The translations under genes were made by a program, and so were the position numbers. This document shows, piece by piece, positions 53,610 to 64,000 of a DNA stretch of 64,000 nt. Source of the stretch: Lachnospiraceae bacterium (GTDB lineage: Bacteria; Bacillota; Clostridia; Lachnospirales; Lachnospiraceae); the NCBI GenBank assembly GCA_017620255.1, contig JAFZQU010000001.1:124001-188000 (forward strand), written 5' to 3'. The notes beneath the pieces were generated by a model. That model made no database searches. It had not been told where the DNA came from and saw only the letters and a list, made by a program, of their open reading frames with translations. Each line of letters starts with the position of its first letter. Within the stretch, counting starts at the first letter, position 1.

Positions 53610-53766
53610 AAATCAGTCCATAAAATTTCATAATACAGACCTTTGACCGTAACAAAAAACACTTCAGTGTGTTAACATGGTACTCAGATGAAACAGGTTG
53701 GGTAGGACAGACCGGCACTTGTGCCGCGTTCTGACCGGTGAACACGCAGGAGAGGAGACTGGCAAA

Positions 53767-56733
53767 ATGAAGATGAGACGGACGAGGGTATTATCGGTGA
53801 TCCTGGCGTTGAGTATGGTGTTCTCAACGCCTTTTTCCGTTGCCGCGGCAGAGGATGAGATCTTTTCGGAAAACGTGGCAGAGGATGCGGTCACTGTGGA
53901 GGAGGCTGTTGCAGTCGAAGAGAACGGAGAGGATCTTCCTGACGAAGAGACTGTCACGGACACGGTTGCTGAGCCCTGGATACTGACGCTGGAGGTTGCG
54001 GAGTCTGCAGGATATGCGGTGCTGACTGGCCAGACGGAAGACCTTCCCGAAGCAGTGGAGGTGTGCGTTTATGCGGAGGACTCTACACTGTTTGAAGCGC
54101 AGTTGCCCGTTAACGAAAACGGAGAATACAGGTACGAACTGCCGCTTGCGGAACTGCTTCCCGGTGGGTATCAGCTTGCGGCGTATGCGGATGGAGAGAT
54201 GATCGCCGGCGGTGATTTTTACGTAGTGGATGTTCTTGCATCGGAGGATGAAACCTGTGAACTGCGCCTTAATGAGGATACGTTCTATGTACCGTCCGAA
54301 GGCCTTTCCGATGTGGAAGACGCATCGGAAGAACCTCAGACTGAAGAAGCGACGGGCGATGATGAAACCGTCGCTCAGGAGGAAGCAGAAGCCGATGCGG
54401 AGGCACCGGAAGAGGAAAGACTCGGTGTTCCGGGTTCGGTGAAGGTAGGCCTTGGCGAATCTTCTTCCGATCATGATCTCTATATTTATCTTACCGGGGA
54501 GTCTGCTTTTGTCACCATTACGGTCACGCGCCGCGGTCTGAATGAAAAATATGCCATTACCACAGTGGAATGCGAAGTGGGGACAACGAAAGTCAACCTG
54601 GATGACCTCGACCTCAAGCTGCCTGCGGGAACATGGTTTTTAGAGGCGTATGTTTATGAGCATGAAGAGGTGCATACGGGAACGAACCAGCACGTTCTTT
54701 ATCAGGTTCACCAAACCGGGGAGATCGCTGAGATCAATAAGGCAACTCCCGGCCATTCGGACGGTTCGTTCCGGCTGCGGAATGAGGAAAGATATTATCA
54801 CAATTCCGATGACGTGACCGGATCGATCAGCTACAGGAACCTGAATTGGGATAATTATATGACAAGCGCTCGTGCGGATACTCTTATCACCAATCTTCCT
54901 GCAGGAACCTATGAGGTGCGTTTCAACGCGACGACGCAGACGGGAAGCCCGAAGCGATACTGTGCGGCTACAGAGTATAAAACATTTATCATCGGGGAGG
55001 AACCGCGGGAAGTTACGAAGATGGAGTTCACCACGGATGGAGAACATGTTATCAGCAGCCAGGTAAACATGTATAAAGGTGCAACAAGGATATTCCCGAT
55101 CAAATTCAATGACGGTTTATCGGAGCCGGATGATAAGCGGGTAAAATATGAGAGCTCCGATCCGTCCAAAGTTTCCGTGGATGCGAACGGAAACGTGAAA
55201 GCACTGAAGGAGGTGAAACCTCCGGAACTGCCCGTAACCATAAAGGCTACCGCTCTGTCCAACGGTAAAACTGCATCTCTCCAGATAGCGGTTCTCGGGT
55301 CTATCACAATGAAGTTTGCAAAGTCTTCCCTGAACGTGGAAAAGTCTGCTGGGGTTATCTTGGATTTTACAGCGACGAAAAATACACCGAACGAATTTTA
55401 TGTTTCAAGTTCCGACCAAAGCATATGCGAGATCGCATCCCCGTTTGCGCTGACCGGATATGACGCATCAACCGGGAAGGGTTACTTAACGATCAACCCT
55501 TCTGCCGTCAAGAAACCGGGCAAGGTCACGATCACGGCCACATATGAAGCCACAGGACAATTCACCACCTGTGATGTGATCTTCAACGGCGTTTACAAAC
55601 CGGGAACAGCTGATATGTCTGTGATCAGCGGCGGCAAGAAGATGACAGGCTGGATCTACCTGGATGATGTGAAAAGCACCGTCACCACGAAAGCCAAGGC
55701 AAAGCACATTTACTATATCGATCCGGTTACCGGAAAGCCGGTAAACGGACTAGTAAAGATAGGAAAAGATCTTTATTATTTCAAGGATTACGAAGCCTAT
55801 ACGGCGAAGGAAGATCAACCGGCCTATATGGATTACCATGAGATCTATTTCGGAAAAGGCGGCAAACTGCTGACCGGATGGCAGCAACATGGGACGGATC
55901 GGTATTATTACGATCCGGAGACGGGCATTGCCGTTCAGTATGGATTTGTTCCGGTTGGCAGGGGCAGCGGATACGTTGATAATTATGTAAGGTGGGAAGA
56001 AGGAATAACGTTCATCGGAAGTTATTATTATTACTTCGAAAAAGGAGTCATTCAGACCGGCTGGATCTACTTAAACGATGCCGATGAGAAATGCGCAAAA
56101 TCAAAGGCTACCAAATGGTACTATGCGGATCCCGTAACGGCCAGGATCTCCGATACAGAGGGTATCCTCACCATCGGAAAAAAAGACTATTACATAAGCA
56201 ATTCTCCCTCCAACGGTTGTATCCGTCATGAGGCTGGATTTATCGACGCGGATCACTCATCGGATGTGAGTGCCGGTGATCTTTACACCGGTGCGGATGG
56301 GGTGATCGTTGTAAATAAAACAGTTACGTCTGATGGAAAAACATATTATCTGGGGGCGGACGGACATCCGAAAACAGGCATGTTCTTAGACGGTGGCAAA
56401 TTTGTCTGCACGGATTCCAAGGGCTCCGGGCTTAACAATTGTGCCTCCCTTTACATCTGCGGCGATGATAACAGCGGCAGTGCAACGGCTTTCGGGTTCG
56501 TGTCGCAAAAAGGCGAGATGCTGTTTTATGACGATACATATCAAACAACCCAGCTGAAGAATCAATGGCTTCGCACAACCTCAGCTGAGAAAAGCCGGGT
56601 GAAGGATATTATTACCTGGATAAGAGCGGTAAGATCGCAAAAGGGTTTCAGACGATCAACGGGAAGCGGTACTATTTTGATGAGACCACCGGACTTCTTG
56701 AGACCGGCGCGCCATTGTACGATCAGAACATAG
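53767..56733 (+). CDS. Giant secreted cell-surface repeat protein, N-terminal part before a frameshift
   Basis: From ATG 53767 (GGAG upstream): signal peptide (RRTRVLSVILALSMVFSTPFSVAAA), an acidic region (about 30-220), beta domains including a Big_2-like Ig domain (KVSVDANGNVKALKE), then aromatic/glycine-rich wall-binding repeats such as MTGWIYLDD, KIGKDLYYFKD and LLTGWQQHGTDRYYYDPETG. Such repeats bind surface glycans. The last ~47 residues (after 56589) lose the repeat pattern, while the -1 frame resumes it; see the next entry. Confidence 0.8.
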   Translation: MKMRRTRVLSVILALSMVFSTPFSVAAAEDEIFSENVAEDAVTVEEAVAVEENGEDLPDEETVTDTVAEPWILTLEVAESAGYAVLTGQTEDLPEAVEVCVYAEDSTLFEAQLPVNENGEYRYELPLAELLPGGYQLAAYADGEMIAGGDFYVVDVLASEDETCELRLNEDTFYVPSEGLSDVEDASEEPQTEEATGDDETVAQEEAEADAEAPEEERLGVPGSVKVGLGESSSDHDLYIYLTGESAFVTITVTRRGLNEKYAITTVECEVGTTKVNLDDLDLKLPAGTWFLEAYVYEHEEVHTGTNQHVLYQVHQTGEIAEINKATPGHSDGSFRLRNEERYYHNSDDVTGSISYRNLNWDNYMTSARADTLITNLPAGTYEVRFNATTQTGSPKRYCAATEYKTFIIGEEPREVTKMEFTTDGEHVISSQVNMYKGATRIFPIKFNDGLSEPDDKRVKYESSDPSKVSVDANGNVKALKEVKPPELPVTIKATALSNGKTASLQIAVLGSITMKFAKSSLNVEKSAGVILDFTATKNTPNEFYVSSSDQSICEIASPFALTGYDASTGKGYLTINPSAVKKPGKVTITATYEATGQFTTCDVIFNGVYKPGTADMSVISGGKKMTGWIYLDDVKSTVTTKAKAKHIYYIDPVTGKPVNGLVKIGKDLYYFKDYEAYTAKEDQPAYMDYHEIYFGKGGKLLTGWQQHGTDRYYYDPETGIAVQYGFVPVGRGSGYVDNYVRWEEGITFIGSYYYYFEKGVIQTGWIYLNDADEKCAKSKATKWYYADPVTARISDTEGILTIGKKDYYISNSPSNGCIRHEAGFIDADHSSDVSAGDLYTGADGVIVVNKTVTSDGKTYYLGADGHPKTGMFLDGGKFVCTDSKGSGLNNCASLYICGDDNSGSATAFGFVSQKGEMLFYDDTYQTTQLKNQWLRTTSAEKSRVKDIITWIRAVRSQKGFRRSTGSGTILMRPPDFLRPARHCTIRT

Positions 56734-58658
56734 AGAGGAAGCAGCTCGTCACGGCACCGATCAAGGGAAAACTGTACCTGCTCAATAATATTACCGACAC
56801 ATACGCAAATGCTTTCCCCGGCAGGATCTACTATAAGGAGGCCGGTAAGAAGGGCAGCAAACCGAAAGAATATTATGTGGATGCAAACGGCGTCTGTCAG
56901 ACCGGCTGGCAGACGATCAACAAGCAGAAGTTTTATTTTGGCGCAGACGGGAAAAAACTGTTCGACGATTTTGAATTAAACGGAAAATGTTATTTCATAA
57001 ACAGTGACGGATCCTTGTACAGTGACAGTCAGGAAAAGATCATAAAGAGCGGTTCTCATGTGACCGGCGTGGTGAAAAAGGACGGCACCTATATGGCGGG
57101 GTGGATCTATCTTGACAGTTCAAACAGCAATGTCCTGAAAAAACCCTCCAAGGACGGGCATACCTATTATGCGGGTCCGGGTGGAAGTATCATGTCCGTA
57201 TATAACAGGATCTATCTGATCGGCAAAAAGTACTATTCGGTAGGCTCCGACGGCAGTATGATCACGGGCTGGAAATATATGGAACAACCGGAATTCGTAG
57301 ATGCTTCCACAGGGGAGAGGATCATCAGATATTACGGGAAAAACTTCTGCTTCTGTTTTGATCCGGAGGCAGGCAACGGAATGCTTACGGGGTTGCAGAA
57401 GGTCGATCAAAAGCCCTGCACCGCAAACGGACAGATCCTGACCGATCAGGAGGGGAAGGCCGTCATTAACAAAGGGGATGCGACTGTATTCTTCTATCAG
57501 GATATGACGGACGATCATCCCATCGGGGCCCTCGCATTGAACATGCCGGTGGTTGACGGCGGCAATTTATACAGCCTGCGCAAGGACGGCACACTTTGTG
57601 AAAATGAAAGCGGCTGGGTCGATGCGGAAGGTTCCGGATACAGACTGGATGACGGTACGCTGGCCAGGGGAAGGATGGCGGTCAAGGACAACGATGTCGA
57701 ACGCTATTGCTGTTTTGATCTACAGGACGGCTCGCTACAGAAAGACTGCTTAAGAAAGACCGGTAACAAATGGTATTACTATAATGCGAAAGGAATGCAG
57801 GAGAAAAAGAATATTTTTGCCTCGCCGGCAGGCGAACCAAAGGTGAAGGCGGTATACGCTGCCGATGGAAGCATTTCCGGCTTTGTATATGAAGCGGACG
57901 GCAAGAAAGCATCCGATGTGGCGATCTTATTCTCGGAAGAAATGACGATCCTCGGAAAGGATTCCCTTCCCGCAACGGGACTCGTAGCCCACGCAGGTGT
58001 CAGCCGTTATTATCGTGCCGACGGCAGACCGTATTTCACAGGAGGGAAAAACAGTCTGGTCAAGATCGGCAAAAAATATTACCTGTGCCGGGACGGCAAG
58101 ATGCTCTCGGGTGAGAATGAGTTGGAAACCCTCGATGTATCTTTGTCGGAAGACGAACAGAAGAACCTGACAGCATATTTCAGCGTTGCCGATTCCGCCT
58201 CTGTGGCACCTTACTACTGTTATACGGGCGCGGATGGCGCCGTCCTGCAAAACGCCCTGATTTCGGGTAATCCTTACGGAACTCACACGAACGCATACGG
58301 TCTTCTGATAGATGATACAGATCTTGCATGGTTCTATAAGTATGGCGGAAAGTGGCATGTTCCCGACAAAACCGGTCCGGGGGAAGATGCGGATTCTTTG
58401 TATGAATACAGCACAAGTTTTCTGGTGAATGTCCGGATCCGCTGGAGGGCGGACGGCGTCCTTCAGGGGATATACGGAATGGACGGAAAGGCGGTCAGCG
58501 GGCTGTATTACTATGATGTCTCCGGTGACTCCTATGCGATCCTTCTGAAAAACGGACTTCCGGTTACCGGCAAACAGACGGTTACCCTTCCCGGCGGTAT
58601 CAAGTCAACGATGTTTTTTGACGCCGATTGCGGTATCAGGTATGACAGACTGCTGTGA
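56592..58658 (+). CDS. Giant secreted repeat protein, C-terminal part in the -1 frame
   Basis: The same protein continues in another frame: KPGEGYYYLDKSGKIAKGF, then many wall-binding repeats (TINKQKFYFGADGKKL, AGWIYLDSSNS, TGWKYMEQ) to a clean stop at 58658. An independent start would be TTG 56715, without a ribosome site. The frames join at AAAA 56590-56593: adding one A restores a single ORF of about 1630 residues. Either a natural mutation or a sequence error. Confidence 0.75.
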   Translation, partial: KPGEGYYYLDKSGKIAKGFQTINGKRYYFDETTGLLETGAPLYDQNIERKQLVTAPIKGKLYLLNNITDTYANAFPGRIYYKEAGKKGSKPKEYYVDANGVCQTGWQTINKQKFYFGADGKKLFDDFELNGKCYFINSDGSLYSDSQEKIIKSGSHVTGVVKKDGTYMAGWIYLDSSNSNVLKKPSKDGHTYYAGPGGSIMSVYNRIYLIGKKYYSVGSDGSMITGWKYMEQPEFVDASTGERIIRYYGKNFCFCFDPEAGNGMLTGLQKVDQKPCTANGQILTDQEGKAVINKGDATVFFYQDMTDDHPIGALALNMPVVDGGNLYSLRKDGTLCENESGWVDAEGSGYRLDDGTLARGRMAVKDNDVERYCCFDLQDGSLQKDCLRKTGNKWYYYNAKGMQEKKNIFASPAGEPKVKAVYAADGSISGFVYEADGKKASDVAILFSEEMTILGKDSLPATGLVAHAGVSRYYRADGRPYFTGGKNSLVKIGKKYYLCRDGKMLSGENELETLDVSLSEDEQKNLTAYFSVADSASVAPYYCYTGADGAVLQNALISGNPYGTHTNAYGLLIDDTDLAWFYKYGGKWHVPDKTGPGEDADSLYEYSTSFLVNVRIRWRADGVLQGIYGMDGKAVSGLYYYDVSGDSYAILLKNGLPVTGKQTVTLPGGIKSTMFFDADCGIRYDRLL

Positions 58659-58713: not shown

Positions 58714-58793
58714 CCTGCATCCGGCTACCCGGAAAAGTTTTTTTACACAGATTAAAAATTCGCAAAGGTTCCATGTTCATGCATTGGAATCTA

Positions 58794-58802
58794 TGCTATA
58801 CT
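58794..58802 (+). promoter_or_regulatory. Extended -10 promoter of the DUF5717 operon
   Basis: TGCTATACT (58794-58802) is an extended -10 with a poor -35. AGGGGAG (58811-58817) could be a ribosome site but lies 18 bases from GTG 58836. Confidence 0.4.
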
Positions 58803-58835
58803 GTATGTTAAGGGGAGTATACTCGACAGCATTGT

Positions 58836-61800
58836 GTGGTGAGTAGCTTGCGCGAAATTGTAGACAAACTGATCAATGGGTTTTTTGAGTATGACTGCGG
58901 GAAACTCACTTTTAGTGTACCTAAAATTGACGTGTCCGTACCCCCGGGGGAACTCTATGAGGGGACCTTCACTCTGAAAAGTGTCACGGATACGCTCGTC
59001 ACAGGACATGTTTACACATCCGGCATGCGTCTCGTATGCAGAACCGACTATTTTGAAGATGTAGAAAAAGAGATCCGATATGTGTTTGATCCCACGGGTT
59101 TGGAAGCGGGGGATGTAGTCAAAGGCGACATCCAGATCGTTTCTTCCGCCGGTGAGTATTATATTCCTTTTGTTTTCTCGATCATCAATACCACGATCGA
59201 ATCGTCGCTCGGAAGCGTACGGAATCTGTTCCACTTTACAAATCAGGCCCAGCTGAACTGGGACGAAGCGGTCCATATGTTCTATTCGCCGCGCTTTATC
59301 CAGATCTTTGATGGAAATGACAGGATCCATCTGGATAAGTACCTGGGATTCCTGAACGCGCCGCACTCTGAACAGAGCGTGGATGCATTTCTGGTTGCCA
59401 TCAATAAAAAACAGCCCATGCAGTTTTCACTGGACCGCTCGGTGTATGAGTTCAGGGATGTGCTTGAAAACATGCGCTGCGAGGTTACGGTGCATAAATC
59501 CACATGGGGTTATGTGCATCTGGAACTGAGCACGGACGGTGATTTTGTCCGTCTGGAAAAAGAAACCGTAACGGACCTTGATTTTCTCGGAAATGATTAC
59601 CGGCTGGTATTCTATCTGGACGATACCAAACTGCACGAAGGTAACAACTACGGGCGGATCCTGCTGCACGGCGGCACGAAGGACCAGACGCTCACGATCG
59701 TTGCGAGCAAACGCAAACAGACTTCCCCGGGAAGGGCAAAGAAGCGCGAATGGAACCAGCTGATCAACCGCCTGATGCGCAAATATCTGTCGTTCCGCCT
59801 GAAACTGATCAATGTCAACGCATGGACCAGAGAATCCATGAAAATCGTGGAACGCCTGAATGCCGTTGACGACAAGAATCCGCTGTCGCGGTTGTTCCAG
59901 GCACAGCTGCTTCTGGTCGAAGAGCGGTACAACGAAGCCAACTGGATCTTAGAGCATGTGGTCAATGACATGAACATCCACAATACGGATCCGGAAGTGT
60001 ACTGTTACTATCTGTACCTGACCACACTGTACCGGCGGGAAGAAGATTATGTAAACCAAATTAGCGCGCAGGTCAATTCCATTTATGAGCAGAAGCCGAA
60101 GGCGTTCCAGATCCTCTGGACCCTGCTGTATCTGGATGAACATCTGGCAGGAAGCGATTCCGCAAAACTCGCTGCGATCGAGAAACAGTTCCATATGAAC
60201 TGCTTCAGCCCGATCCTGTACATGGAAGCCTATATATGTTATGTAAACAATCCGGCATTGCTTGCCAAGCTGACGGATTTTGAGTTACAGGTACTGTGGC
60301 TGCCTGTCAGGAACGGAAGACTGGACCGCGAGGTCATGAGCCAGCTCACTTATCTTGCCGCCAAGCAAAAATCGATCACGCCGCAGCTGATGAAAGTCCT
60401 GTTTGGCGCCTATTCGATCCTGCCGGATCCGGAGCTTGCCACCGTGATCTGCACGCTGCTGATCAAGGAAGATAAACGGGACAGCGTTTACTTCCCCTGG
60501 TATGTGAGAGGCGTTGAAGCGGATGCCAGGATCACGAAACTGTACGAATATTTTATCTATTCATTGCCGGAAGGCTATGCGCAGGCCCTGCCAAAGCAGG
60601 TGTTCATGTATTTCGGATACCAGAACGATCTTTCACCGCTGCACAGGGCGCGCCTGTATGCAAACCTGATCGCGCATAAGCAGGAATTGCCGGAGCTCTA
60701 TGAATCCTATACGGAACAGATGATGGTATTTGCACGCGAGCAGATCGAGCAGGAAAAGATCAGCCGCGAACTGGCCGCGCTTTACAAGGATGTCCTGTTT
60801 GCGCAGAATATGCGTCCGGATCTGGCCAATCACCTGTCAAAAGTGATCTTTGCGCAGGAGCTGTCCGTACCGGAGCCGGATATGAAGAAGGTTGTGATCC
60901 TGCAGGAACAGTTTGTGGAAGAGCAGACCTATCCCGTGGAAGACCACATGGCCTATCCGCTCATCTATAACGATGAGTGCACGCTCTTTTTGGAGAATGA
61001 GCTTGGCGAGCGGAAACTGGTGGATAAGAGTCGGCTGCAGAAGCTGATGAACGAGACCCTGTACATCCCGCTCATTAAAGATTATGTAAACCAAAATCTG
61101 CTGTTCACTTCCTATCTCGTGGAAGGAAAGCGGCATTACGTGACCGTGGATGAGAGCAATGTGGAGCGCTGCAGGGAACTGGTGGATTCTTCCGCCGTGA
61201 AGGAATCCTATAAACGCGACATCCGTTCCGGGCTGATGCATTACTATTACGACAACGACGAGGGATCCACGCTGGATTCGTTCCTCGAAGAGATGGATGC
61301 TAAGGTGCTCGACGCCAAAGACCGTGCGGAACTCATTCATTTCTATGTGCTGCGGAGCATGTACGAAGAAGCCTACGAGCTGATGTGCATCTACGGCACG
61401 GATGAGATCAACGCAAAGACCTGCGTGAAGATCTGCGCACGCATGGTGGAACAGAAAGACAGACTGCCGGATCCGATGCTCGTGAAGATGTGCTATTTTG
61501 CCTTCAGGCAGGGGAAATATGATTCGGAGACACTGCAGTATCTGGTCGACAACTTTGACGGCCTGACAAAGGAACTCAGGGATCTCTGGAAGGCGGCGGG
61601 ACAGTTTGATCTTGACTGCTATATGCTGACGGAGAAACTGATCATCCAGATGCTCTACACCAGGACAACGGTCGGTGAGAAGGAGCAGATCTTTGAACAT
61701 TATTTAAGCATCGGTGCGTCCACAAGGGTGGAACTTGCGTACCTGTCCTATTCGGCGTTTGACTATTTTGCGAAAGAACGCCTGACGGATGATTCGATCT

Positions 61801-62405
61801 TCGAGCATCTGGTGGACAATTACAGACTCGGCGAAGAACTGAATGACGCCTGCAAACTTGCACTGCTCAAATACTACGCGGAGGAAAAGCACGATCATTC
61901 CGAGCGCATCAAGGATATGCTGCGTGCGTTCTTAAAAGAGTATATGCACCGGAACATGTATTTCAGGTTTTTCAGCGCGTACATCACGCTCCTGCCGGAG
62001 CTTGGCGCGTTTGAAGATAAAGCGATCATCGAATACAGGACGAATCCCGGCAACCGCGTGATGATCCATTACATTCTGGAGGAGCCGGATTCCGAGGAGG
62101 ACACTTACCGCACGGAAGAGATGCGCAACATGTACGGCGGCGTCTTCTCCAAGGATTTTGTACTGTTCTTTGGTGAGAACCTGCAATATTACATCACGGA
62201 GGAAAAGGGCGGCAGAGAGCAGCTGACGGTCAGCGATTCGGTCAGCATTTCGGAATCGTCCGCACTCGAGAGCGAGTCACGCTACAGCCTGCTAAACGAT
62301 ATGGTCGTGAGCAAGACGCTGCAGGATGATGAAACACTGTTGAAACTGATGGAGGAATATGTGGAAGCCGACTGCTTCACCACACAGATTTTTAATATCC
62401 TATGA
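58836..62405 (+). CDS. Large DUF5717-type protein of unknown function
   Basis: About 1189 residues from GTG 58836; GTG 58839 and TTG 58848 are alternatives. No signal peptide or membrane span, so cytoplasmic. Residues 20-130 and 205-300 look like Ig-like beta-sandwich domains (DVSVPPGELYEGTFTLKS; STWGYVHLELSTDGDF). From about 310 to the C-terminus it is almost wholly helical with repeated paired helices, like a TPR/solenoid (RLFQAQLLLVEERYNEANWILEHV). It resembles Lachnospiraceae DUF5717. Overlaps the next gene by 4 bases. Confidence 0.75.
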   Translation: MVSSLREIVDKLINGFFEYDCGKLTFSVPKIDVSVPPGELYEGTFTLKSVTDTLVTGHVYTSGMRLVCRTDYFEDVEKEIRYVFDPTGLEAGDVVKGDIQIVSSAGEYYIPFVFSIINTTIESSLGSVRNLFHFTNQAQLNWDEAVHMFYSPRFIQIFDGNDRIHLDKYLGFLNAPHSEQSVDAFLVAINKKQPMQFSLDRSVYEFRDVLENMRCEVTVHKSTWGYVHLELSTDGDFVRLEKETVTDLDFLGNDYRLVFYLDDTKLHEGNNYGRILLHGGTKDQTLTIVASKRKQTSPGRAKKREWNQLINRLMRKYLSFRLKLINVNAWTRESMKIVERLNAVDDKNPLSRLFQAQLLLVEERYNEANWILEHVVNDMNIHNTDPEVYCYYLYLTTLYRREEDYVNQISAQVNSIYEQKPKAFQILWTLLYLDEHLAGSDSAKLAAIEKQFHMNCFSPILYMEAYICYVNNPALLAKLTDFELQVLWLPVRNGRLDREVMSQLTYLAAKQKSITPQLMKVLFGAYSILPDPELATVICTLLIKEDKRDSVYFPWYVRGVEADARITKLYEYFIYSLPEGYAQALPKQVFMYFGYQNDLSPLHRARLYANLIAHKQELPELYESYTEQMMVFAREQIEQEKISRELAALYKDVLFAQNMRPDLANHLSKVIFAQELSVPEPDMKKVVILQEQFVEEQTYPVEDHMAYPLIYNDECTLFLENELGERKLVDKSRLQKLMNETLYIPLIKDYVNQNLLFTSYLVEGKRHYVTVDESNVERCRELVDSSAVKESYKRDIRSGLMHYYYDNDEGSTLDSFLEEMDAKVLDAKDRAELIHFYVLRSMYEEAYELMCIYGTDEINAKTCVKICARMVEQKDRLPDPMLVKMCYFAFRQGKYDSETLQYLVDNFDGLTKELRDLWKAAGQFDLDCYMLTEKLIIQMLYTRTTVGEKEQIFEHYLSIGASTRVELAYLSYSAFDYFAKERLTDDSIFEHLVDNYRLGEELNDACKLALLKYYAEEKHDHSERIKDMLRAFLKEYMHRNMYFRFFSAYITLLPELGAFEDKAIIEYRTNPGNRVMIHYILEEPDSEEDTYRTEEMRNMYGGVFSKDFVLFFGENLQYYITEEKGGREQLTVSDSVSISESSALESESRYSLLNDMVVSKTLQDDETLLKLMEEYVEADCFTTQIFNIL

Positions 62406-63700
62406 TAACACTGAAGGATGATCGCAAACCCGCGTTCGTGATCGGATACGATCTGAACGACCAGGTTTCGCAGATCAGTTACTACGAACTGAATAAGGAC
62501 GTGCCGGAGACGCTCATGGATGAGGAAGAGGAAGAGCGCCTCGGGATCCCGACGGTTCTTTGCAAACGCAAGAACGTCAGTCAGTGGTATTGCGGGAGAG
62601 AGGCACAGAAAGTGGTCGAGCGCGGCGAAGGAACGCTGGTCGGAAAACTGTTAAGTTTTGCAAGGTCCGGTGCCAAGATCGAACTCGAAGGAGAGGCGTA
62701 TGACTGCGTGGATCTGCTGGTGCTGTTTGTGCGCAGAACACTCAACCAGTTATCCATGATCACGGGACCCGACCAGGTGGAAGCGATGATCTTTACGGTC
62801 GATTCGCTTGAAGGACGGACGATCGATGTGTTAAACAGCGTCGCATCTGCACTGCCCATAGCAAGAGAGCGGATCTTCTTCCAGACATATGAGGAGAGCA
62901 GTTATTACTATGTGCTCCATCAGCCTTCGGAACTGTGGGAACACGAAGTGGTGATCTTTGATTATTCGAACCAGTTCATGCGTGCTTATGATCTGTGGAT
63001 GAACCACCGCACGACGCCGATCGTCTGCTTTGTGGAACGCAGTGATTATACGGAACTCAAGACCCCGTCGCTGATGCTTGGAGAAACACCGACGGAAGAA
63101 TCCAGAGATTATCTGGATGAGTATGTACTGCATACGATCCACGGCCTGCTGAATCCGAAAACGGTCAGTTCCGTTTTCCTGATCGGTGACGGTTTTGACG
63201 AATCCTGGTGCAACAAGACGCTGAAATACCTGTGTATGGGAAGGCGTGTGTTCCAGGGTAAAAATCTCTATTCGAAGGGCGCCTGCTACTGTGCGAAAGA
63301 CAAGATCACGCCCTGCGAACTCAATAAACAGTATGTATTCCTCGGTGCAGACAAACTGAAATGCAATGTCGGCGTACAGATGCGGCGAGGACAGAGCGAG
63401 GAATACTTTGCACTGGCGGATGCCGGTGAAAACTGGTATGACGCCAAAAAACAGTTTGAGTGCATCCTGGAAGAAGGATGTTATGTAAACTTCACGATCA
63501 CGCCGCTTGACGGAAAAGACAAACAGATGCTGTCAGTGGAACTGAACGGTCTTCCGCAGCGGCCAAAGCGGGCTACCAGGCTTCGCATCATGACGGAAAT
63601 GCAGTCGGAAACTCATATCAAGATCAAGATACACGACCTCGGATTCGGAGAGATGTTTCCATCCTCCGGCAAGGTCTGGACATTGGAAGCGGAAGTGTAA
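62402..63700 (+). CDS. DUF5716-type protein with degenerate Hsp70/actin-like fold
   Basis: A 432-residue protein. FVIGYDLNDQVSQISYYEL matches the first phosphate loop of the Hsp70/actin fold; AMIFTVDSLEGRTIDVLNSVASAL, RIFFQTYEESSYYYVL and VVIFDYSNQFMRAYDL match the centre; SVFLIGDGFDESWCNKTL is the adenosine loop. The usual DLGGGT second phosphate loop has become DYSNQF, so ATP hydrolysis may be lost. A C-terminal beta domain follows (about 345-432). Coupled to the DUF5717 gene. Confidence 0.72.
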   Translation: MITLKDDRKPAFVIGYDLNDQVSQISYYELNKDVPETLMDEEEEERLGIPTVLCKRKNVSQWYCGREAQKVVERGEGTLVGKLLSFARSGAKIELEGEAYDCVDLLVLFVRRTLNQLSMITGPDQVEAMIFTVDSLEGRTIDVLNSVASALPIARERIFFQTYEESSYYYVLHQPSELWEHEVVIFDYSNQFMRAYDLWMNHRTTPIVCFVERSDYTELKTPSLMLGETPTEESRDYLDEYVLHTIHGLLNPKTVSSVFLIGDGFDESWCNKTLKYLCMGRRVFQGKNLYSKGACYCAKDKITPCELNKQYVFLGADKLKCNVGVQMRRGQSEEYFALADAGENWYDAKKQFECILEEGCYVNFTITPLDGKDKQMLSVELNGLPQRPKRATRLRIMTEMQSETHIKIKIHDLGFGEMFPSSGKVWTLEAEV

Positions 63701-63703
63701 AAA

Positions 63704-64000
63704 ATGGCTGAACTGACACTGTGCATGGGCACTCTGGCAAAAACTCCATATTACATCACGGGACTCGGTGTGAACGTATATTCCATCGAGGAGCTTTGCT
63801 ATTGTCTTGCGGGGAACGCGTATATCCTCGATGAGGACCTGATGGATCCGAAACTCTGCACGTTCATCGAAAAGCAGCTGCAGTTAAAGGAACTGGCCAC
63901 GGACCTTCGTGAACTCATCGATGAGAACAAGAGTATCGGCGAGTTCGTGACAACGATCTTAACCAAGACCGGCTACTTAAGTGAAGAAGAGATCTACGAG
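63704..64000 (+). CDS. Third gene of the DUF5717/DUF5716 operon, cut by the window end
   Basis: Open from ATG 63704 (3 bases after the DUF5716 stop) to the edge, 99 codons. The start MAELTLCMGTLAKTPYYITGLG is followed by helical segments (SIEELCYCLAGNAYILDEDLM, KQLQLKELATDLRELIDENK). No signal peptide. Family not recognised. The tight spacing shows that it belongs to the same transcript. Confidence 0.7.
   Translation, partial: MAELTLCMGTLAKTPYYITGLGVNVYSIEELCYCLAGNAYILDEDLMDPKLCTFIEKQLQLKELATDLRELIDENKSIGEFVTTILTKTGYLSEEEIYE

Follow-up and report, generated by a model that had tools for sequence, protein, structure and literature searches.

The window analysed here is a stretch of 64,000 nucleotides of contig JAFZQU010000001.1 from a Lachnospiraceae bacterium (genome of 2.9 Mb in 48 contigs), a family that is among the main gut and rumen bacteria. 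An operon of four genes, A to D, begins near its right end and runs past it (Table 1). The operon is near-universal in 200 sampled genomes of the family, yet its two large proteins, A and B, belong only to Pfam families without a function, DUF5717 and DUF5716. As described below, B is a dead Hsp70, and in other families of the order a larger operon codes in addition for intact Hsp70s and for a protein resembling GrpE; together these findings give the operon a first testable role.

Table 1. Genes and upstream features of the operon; positions are those of the window, from open reading frames (ORFs), Pfam, a scan or inspection by eye
Feature	Position	Strand	Description and basis
Gene A	58836-62405	+	1189 residues, DUF5717; proposed scaffold; ORF list and Pfam
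Gene B	62402-63700	+	432 residues, DUF5716, pseudo-Hsp70; ORF list, Pfam and profile alignment
Gene C	63704-64000 in the window, end at window-equivalent 64540 (L002:6704-7540)	+	278 residues, TPR-like
Gene D	outside the window, window-equivalent 64568-65788 (L002:7568-8788)		406 residues, coiled coil and membrane hairpin
Terminator-like hairpin and T run, ahead of the operon	58720-58733	+	Terminator scan
Possible extended -10 element, TGCTATACT	58794-58802	+	By eye
AAGGGGAG	58810-58817		By eye, upstream of A

The layout agrees for the most part with a first-pass annotation made from the sequence of the window alone, which had described three tightly coupled genes lying after a terminator and behind a promoter of their own, the first coding for a cytoplasmic protein. 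The three ORFs are on the + strand; the overlap of A with B is 4 bases, and 3 bases separate B from C. No membrane-type hydrophobic stretch was found in A, B or C, and a hairpin with a T run does precede the operon (two terminator-like sites in the region, both strands together, against 0.5 expected from shuffles). The promoter fared less well, a consensus scan having found no sigma-70 promoter ahead of A; what is left is the extended -10-like TGCTATACT and AAGGGGAG, both picked by eye. Reading past position 64000, as that annotation had advised, completed C and added D after a gap of 27 bases. The operon unit of the window is A-B-C-D.

Kinship of gene B with Hsp70

The operon was compared at 50 Lachnospiraceae loci (the window's own, four of the seven named loci and 45 others, selected because A or B was found) and at 35 loci belonging to other families of the same order, drawn from 84 genomes with a DUF5716 match outside family f1 and selected for B; both sets are mostly on long contigs. 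Family f1 was equated with Lachnospiraceae through the relatives L033-L039. In the other families B shares its operon with three Hsp70s (H1, H2 and HV) and a GrpE-domain protein (G), and A is represented by two separate genes, A1 and A2. The B set used for conservation, spacing, profiles and residue counts was filtered for length and excludes the B-C fusion of L079 and the Hsp70 of L096 (see below).

Membership of B in DUF5716, suspected in the first-pass annotation, is clear (350.7 bits against the Pfam model DUF5716_C, PF18980, for a cut-off of 34.7; E 6.9e-105). When profiles were aligned with profiles, Lachnospiraceae B matched H2 with a probability of 99.7% (E 1.4e-25) over 403 columns (17-423 against 27-533), H1 with 95.4% over 194 columns and HV with 84.6% over 117; it matched B of other families with an E of 5.6e-58, and A, A1, C, D and G with a probability below 1%. 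H2 is itself alignable with solved DnaK structures across the nucleotide-binding domain (NBD) and the beta part of the substrate-binding domain (SBD-beta). At L044, B matched both DUF5716_C (2.2e-33) and HSP70 (1.8e-14) in Pfam, and the adjoining H2 (546 residues) also matched DUF5716_C (1.3e-12). In a midpoint-rooted tree of 61 of 169 sequences, sampled at random within each group, all 24 B were split from H1, H2, HV and DnaK by a branch with 100/100 support, B of L057 (family f4) clustered with Lachnospiraceae B at 100/100, and the branches of B were longer than those of H1, H2 and HV. By these alignments B is a degenerate Hsp70 by descent, with alignable NBD and SBD-beta regions. The actin-like, cytoskeletal machine considered possible at first finds no support in a protein that has the SBD-beta region of Hsp70 and whose operon kin are DnaK-like.

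The loss of the active site was followed at nine positions of E. coli DnaK, D8, T11, T12, K70, E171, D194, G197, T199 and D201, which we take to be active-site residues. All nine were present in every H1 (29/29), H2 (32/32) and HV (27/27) above the length limit, i.e. in 88 proteins out of 88 (from 31, 34 and 28 loci, respectively, cut or split copies being excluded). They were never all present in B, neither in the 35 of other families nor in the 45 of the 48 Lachnospiraceae proteins that exceed 390 residues (0/80). Thus B lacks the catalytic set even where its partners are intact. Only D8 (39/45 in Lachnospiraceae, 35/35 elsewhere; 74/80) and D194 (28/45 and 34/35; 62/80) are often kept, and they are the sole two left in the B of the window, which has DYSNQF in place of the DLGGGT of Hsp70, as already noticed in the first-pass annotation. 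Among the 80 B, T11 was found in 7, T12 in 5, K70 in none, E171 in 7 (none of them among the 45 of Lachnospiraceae), G197 in 14, T199 in 2 (2/45 in Lachnospiraceae) and D201 in none; K70 is also presented as an active-site residue in the available text of PMC8215388. Judged by these losses, the NBD of B should not hydrolyse ATP normally. G341 is kept in 44 of the 45 Lachnospiraceae B.

A second loss sets the Lachnospiraceae proteins apart. Between the phosphate-2 and adenosine motifs, the median spacing is 140 residues in B of other families versus 66 in Lachnospiraceae B; it is 70 in the B of the window versus 138 in DnaK, and 134, i.e. the full stretch, in B of L057. Judging from this spacing, the stretch containing lobe IIB is shortened by about half in Lachnospiraceae B, whose lobe IIB is probably incomplete. 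Since GrpE opens the Hsp70 cleft by shifting lobe IIB (according to the available parts of PMC8215388 and PMC4753570), this shortening agrees with G being absent from Lachnospiraceae loci.

What remains of B is constrained. Twelve positions are kept in at least 95% of 48 sequences, including the glycine in phosphate loop 1, the adenosine loop, the GA pair of connecting segment 2 and the D, G and G of the SBD-beta end motif DxGFG, which is among the most conserved parts of the protein (all three at 100%); the phosphate-2 loop shows no conservation among Lachnospiraceae B. The protein ends at most about 20 residues past this motif, and the SBD-alpha lid is not present. Equating the DxGFG motif with D481 of DnaK was dropped, the alignment placing D481 at another position. 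Comparison with L034, whose B is 86% identical, gave ratios of nonsynonymous to synonymous divergence (dN/dS) of 0.115 for A, 0.055 for B, 0.080 for C and 0.055 for D, with dS values of 1.1 to 2.2 that are near saturation. These ratios indicate that the operon genes are under purifying selection.

Large and small operons across the order

Many genomes of the order outside Lachnospiraceae had two weaker DUF5716 matches each. At the 35 loci selected for B the genes follow a fixed order, A1, A2, H1, G, B, H2, HV, C and sometimes D, without a single violation. G and B were present in all 35, H2 in 34, H1 in 31, HV in 28, A2 in 27, C in 25, A1 in 19 and D in 4, counts lowered by several operon ends being cut by the fetched stretch. 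In Pfam, the L044 proteins were identified as HSP70 for H1 (6.2e-78), H2 (1.6e-63) and HV (8.1e-92), as DUF5717 for A2, as a clear TPR protein for C, and as a long protein with a GrpE domain at its end for G (7.1e-11). HV (L044:5787-7862 and 27 other loci) is a slowly evolving Hsp70 with a vWA domain in place of the lid; at least 90% of 27 sequences retain the vWA motif DTTGSM. Variation or decay also affects the large operon in families other than Lachnospiraceae: at L045, L051, L056, L114, L117 and L123, HV, H2, H1 or C are missing or other ORFs are in their place.

The Lachnospiraceae loci are without linked G, H1, H2 or HV. Strong matches to G (E 5e-35 or better) were found in 85 of 246 genomes of the order, belonging to 14 families, and in none of the 33 Lachnospiraceae genomes included in the 246. 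Weak matches near its GrpE end, in ORFs of about 175-245 residues, which is the size of an ordinary GrpE, were found in 13 further genomes of the order and in 7 of 100 Lachnospiraceae genomes. L057 stands as an intermediate: its B is dead and has the full IIB stretch, while H1, H2 and the GrpE-domain protein (5.4e-12) are still there and the Hsp70-vWA gene lies in two ORFs. That the small and large loci share an origin is supported by a valS-like neighbour, present at the four other-family loci with D (L054, L057, L111 and L116; 4/4) and at 16 of the 50 Lachnospiraceae loci, in 14 of them at most three genes downstream (phmmer matches at E 1e-30, which may include close relatives of valS; one representative was tested with Pfam). 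The spread of the large operon over 14 families and the case of L057, rather than a rooted species tree, are the grounds for taking it as the probable older state; in Lachnospiraceae, the active Hsp70s and the GrpE-like protein most likely dropped out of the existing locus.

The small operon is found throughout the family. DUF5717_N was detected in 196 of 200 Lachnospiraceae genomes (195 of 199 genera, 163 of 165 good-quality genomes), as a single match in most of them. A class-wide sample gave 11 matches in 291 genomes, ten in Lachnospiraceae and one that is weak and under the cut-off. DUF5716 was matched in 117 of the 246 genomes of the order (109 above cut-off), and in 4 of 299 genomes sampled phylum-wide, all Lachnospiraceae. 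Barring the one weak class-wide match, the DUF5717/DUF5716 pair is confined to one order in these samples. A few oddities were seen. Two Lachnospiraceae genomes, G550 and G611 (93% and 98% complete), had no DUF5717 match. A full-length DUF5716 match of Lachnospiraceae type (3.9e-94) was found at L029, in a genome of family f8 with 5% contamination (G167), and reflects either transfer or contamination.

The linkage of the three genes, which the first-pass annotation had named as one of the points on which its proposal could fall, was found at all 50 Lachnospiraceae loci, themselves selected for A or B, with the order A-B-C kept. A is present at all 50. The ORF screen showed B at 48, to which are added L062 (where B was masked by an antisense ORF and taken from the genome search) and L079 (where B is joined to C); C was seen at 49 loci besides this fusion, and D at 27. 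Gaps of -100 to 150 bases separate A from B in 47/49 cases, B from C in 46/48 and C from D in 26/27; two gap outliers are caused by L096, where the B profile had picked up an Hsp70 of 564 residues (HscC-like, named by eye). In L079, B and C form one ORF of 709 residues (L079:7315-9444, - strand), which suggests that they act together; this ORF entered the C profile of the synteny screen, hence its 'BC' labels.

Proteins A, C and D and possible roles of the operon

The resemblance of A to DUF5717, proposed in the first-pass annotation, was confirmed by curated score with matches along the protein: 912.8 bits for DUF5717_N (E 2.5e-274) and 350 bits for the C-terminal model (E 1.4e-104), the cut-off of both (PF18984 and PF18983) being 25 bits. 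Its N-terminal region resembles the separate A1 of other families and the remainder the separate A2. At L112 (family f24), outside Lachnospiraceae, A1 and A2 also appear to be one ORF (A2 ORF of 1326 residues), so that the fusion may have arisen more than once. The Ig-like domains ascribed to A were not recovered, since a PDB profile search of the N-terminal region gave no match and Pfam gave nothing of note there besides DUF5717_N. With the whole of A, the PDB search gave a single 68-residue chain at E 0.82, and a Chou-Fasman style profile of secondary structure had too weak a signal for use. The evidence on the helical solenoid ascribed to it is divided: in profile-profile alignment, A2 from other families matched the TPR protein C (88.7%), but the fused A of Lachnospiraceae did not (4.9% and 0.4%).

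The C of the window had only weak TPR matches in Pfam; 17 of 22 C proteins matched TPR_2 at E 0.1 or better, and a PDB profile search with C returned many TPR proteins. D has two hydrophobic helices near residues 189-242, flanked by coiled-coil-like parts, and its PDB search returned three keratin coiled coils. A SLATT-like pore, which weak 2TM hits had brought up for D, was dropped, as no consistent Pfam or PADLOC family emerged.

The closest parallel is Ssz1 of the yeast ribosome-associated complex (RAC), which the available text of PMC7083937 describes as a non-canonical Hsp70 that has neither lid nor ATP hydrolysis, uses its SBD to bind nascent chains and is held by Zuo1, its partner. By analogy, B would share with it a non-hydrolysing NBD, a lidless SBD-beta and a stable complex beside an active Hsp70. 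The two differ in that the kinship seen between them is at the level of Hsp70 only, that B is without most of the residues contacting ATP and without a portion of the IIB stretch, and that the system of B is bacterial, with a partner, A, of another family; none of its operon proteins scanned with Pfam matched a J domain. That the operon encodes an ATP-independent, Ssz1-like scaffold complex derived from a chaperone is a reading to which we give about an even chance. A would be the scaffold, whose N-terminal region may be of beta-sandwich type and whose long solenoid may be TPR-like; B, a pseudo-Hsp70 of NBD and SBD-beta, would be permanently assembled on it as an ATP-free binding module; C would serve as a TPR adaptor, and D, where present, would anchor the complex to the membrane, probably on its inner face. 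In Lachnospiraceae this residual complex would bind clients or partners without ATP through the SBD-beta of B, as Ssz1 does in RAC, and would either hold a membrane-associated client or pass clients to the housekeeping DnaK. The latter could take over the ATP cycle that H1, H2, HV and G would supply in other families; the genome of the window has one full-length canonical DnaK/HSP70 match and two partial ones in ORFs of about 340 residues, which by their size and partial match are probably MreB-like. The chaperone-like pairing of a pseudo-ATPase with a large scaffold, put forward in the first-pass annotation, is consistent with what was found, namely an Hsp70-type B without active-site residues next to a very large A.

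In the other families the operon would probably be an ATP-driven machine in which H1, H2, HV and G supply the ATP cycle and B is a fixed, non-cycling subunit. Like DnaK-GrpE, it has Hsp70s with intact active sites and a GrpE-domain protein; unlike DnaK-GrpE, it comprises three Hsp70s, one of them ending in a vWA domain, a pseudo-Hsp70, a long protein that ends in the GrpE domain and a giant DUF5717 protein, with no J-domain match. Our tentative picture, held with a little less confidence than the Ssz1-like complex, is an undescribed chaperone machine of one order, with three active Hsp70s (one vWA-tailed), a GrpE-like factor and a pseudo-Hsp70 on a giant membrane scaffold, which would have been stripped in place to its ATP-free core in the ancestor of Lachnospiraceae and kept by almost every genus. 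It would amount to a natural experiment on how a chaperone machine powered by ATP may shed its motors while its scaffold stays. Relative to the Pfam families, of which A and B are members by curated score and which carry no function, the present work adds that DUF5716 derives from Hsp70 and that a larger operon stands at the related locus. Literature searches with the names DUF5716 and DUF5717 returned nothing relevant; the single paper that contained a DUF name, PMC8115291, was off the subject judging by its listing.

Several observations weigh against the Ssz1-like complex. The B of the window had no Pfam HSP70 match at E 1, and its PDB profile search returned no Hsp70 and one unrelated chain at E 1.4; B of L057 had no Pfam HSP70 match at E 0.001, so that the homology of B with Hsp70 rests on intermediates. 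A complex of A, B, C and D is suggested by operon linkage and the single B-C fusion, and the TPR-like nature of the solenoid by A2 and not by the fused A. D is not at the locus in 23 of the 50 Lachnospiraceae loci, and no credible copy was found elsewhere in 22 of these 23 genomes (three weak partial hits; two positive controls were recovered), so that a membrane anchor is not universal. The lack of a J-domain match counts here too, as does the SBD-beta pocket, in which the position of V436 is a gap in 45/45 Lachnospiraceae B, I438 remaining hydrophobic. This gap, the missing active-site residues, the much reduced IIB stretch, the missing active partners at the locus and the longer branches of B in the tree would also be expected if B were an Hsp70-derived shape without client binding that stabilises A, the operon being a structural or signalling platform. 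We regard this as unlikely, though it is the most serious of the alternatives: the SBD-beta end is among the best-conserved parts of B, and an HSP90 gene in 6 of the 50 loci is a weak hint at proteostasis.

That B is instead a nucleotide-sensing switch, as proposed in the first-pass annotation, binding nucleotide without hydrolysis and altering how A holds its partners, seems improbable to us. The frequent retention of D8 and D194 and that of G341 speak for it, as does Ssz1, which binds ATP and cannot hydrolyse it (PMC7083937, as far as its available text goes); the counts given above for the other seven residues and the unconserved phosphate-2 loop speak against it. Least probable is a conflict or defence system akin to the GTPase-centred GAP1-N2 systems (Kaur et al. 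2020), whose HSP70/GrpE theme is the nearest description found. In the available text of PMC7159879, their neighbourhoods, mainly of actinobacteria and firmicutes, contain HSP70 and GrpE together with an HSP70 devoid of its peptide-binding domain and a repeat (FNIII) protein fused to TPR or DnaJ. PADLOC models were matched by HV (PDC-M61B, 2e-07), C of L044 (PrimPol, 4.4e-06), G (ZorA, 0.0014), the D of the window (2TM effector, 0.0016; 3/24 D members) and one D member (Csx1, 2e-05); these matches are partial and converge on no system, and A and B had none (H2 was outside the scan). No GTPase match was found among the operon proteins scanned with Pfam. As far as the main-text description of the GAP1-N2 systems goes, the operon is further set apart by its central pseudo-Hsp70 and vWA-Hsp70 and by being near-universal in one family, and a mostly single DUF5717 match in nearly all genomes of that family, with purifying selection on the genes, is unlike a patchy defence system.

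Neighbouring genes

The neighbours of the operon vary between Lachnospiraceae loci. In the genome of the window, D is followed by a PilZ-domain gene (Pfam) and a LysR-like gene (by eye) on the opposite strand, and then by a cluster of capsule- or exopolysaccharide-like genes (named by eye). A polysaccharide role drawn from this cluster was set aside given the varying neighbours. A sporulation role was also set aside: SpoIVA was strong in 12 of 33 Lachnospiraceae genomes (one more being marginal) and had no match in the window's own genome, whereas B was found in 33 of 33. The HSP90 gene (L036, L039, L063, L075, L087 and L104; phmmer, same threshold as for valS) lies directly upstream of A in four of its six loci, its representative L075:4468-6528 having been checked with Pfam. 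Seven of the 50 loci (L061:14191-14715 and six others; one representative was tested) have a DUF4364-like gene on the opposite strand, upstream of A by one or two genes. Upstream of the operon in the window, a secreted protein with cell-wall-binding-like repeats (53698-58658) is broken into two ORFs of different frames, 53698-56733 and 56715-58658; its repeat pattern appears to continue in the other frame near 56620-56680, and the split reflects either decay or a sequencing error.

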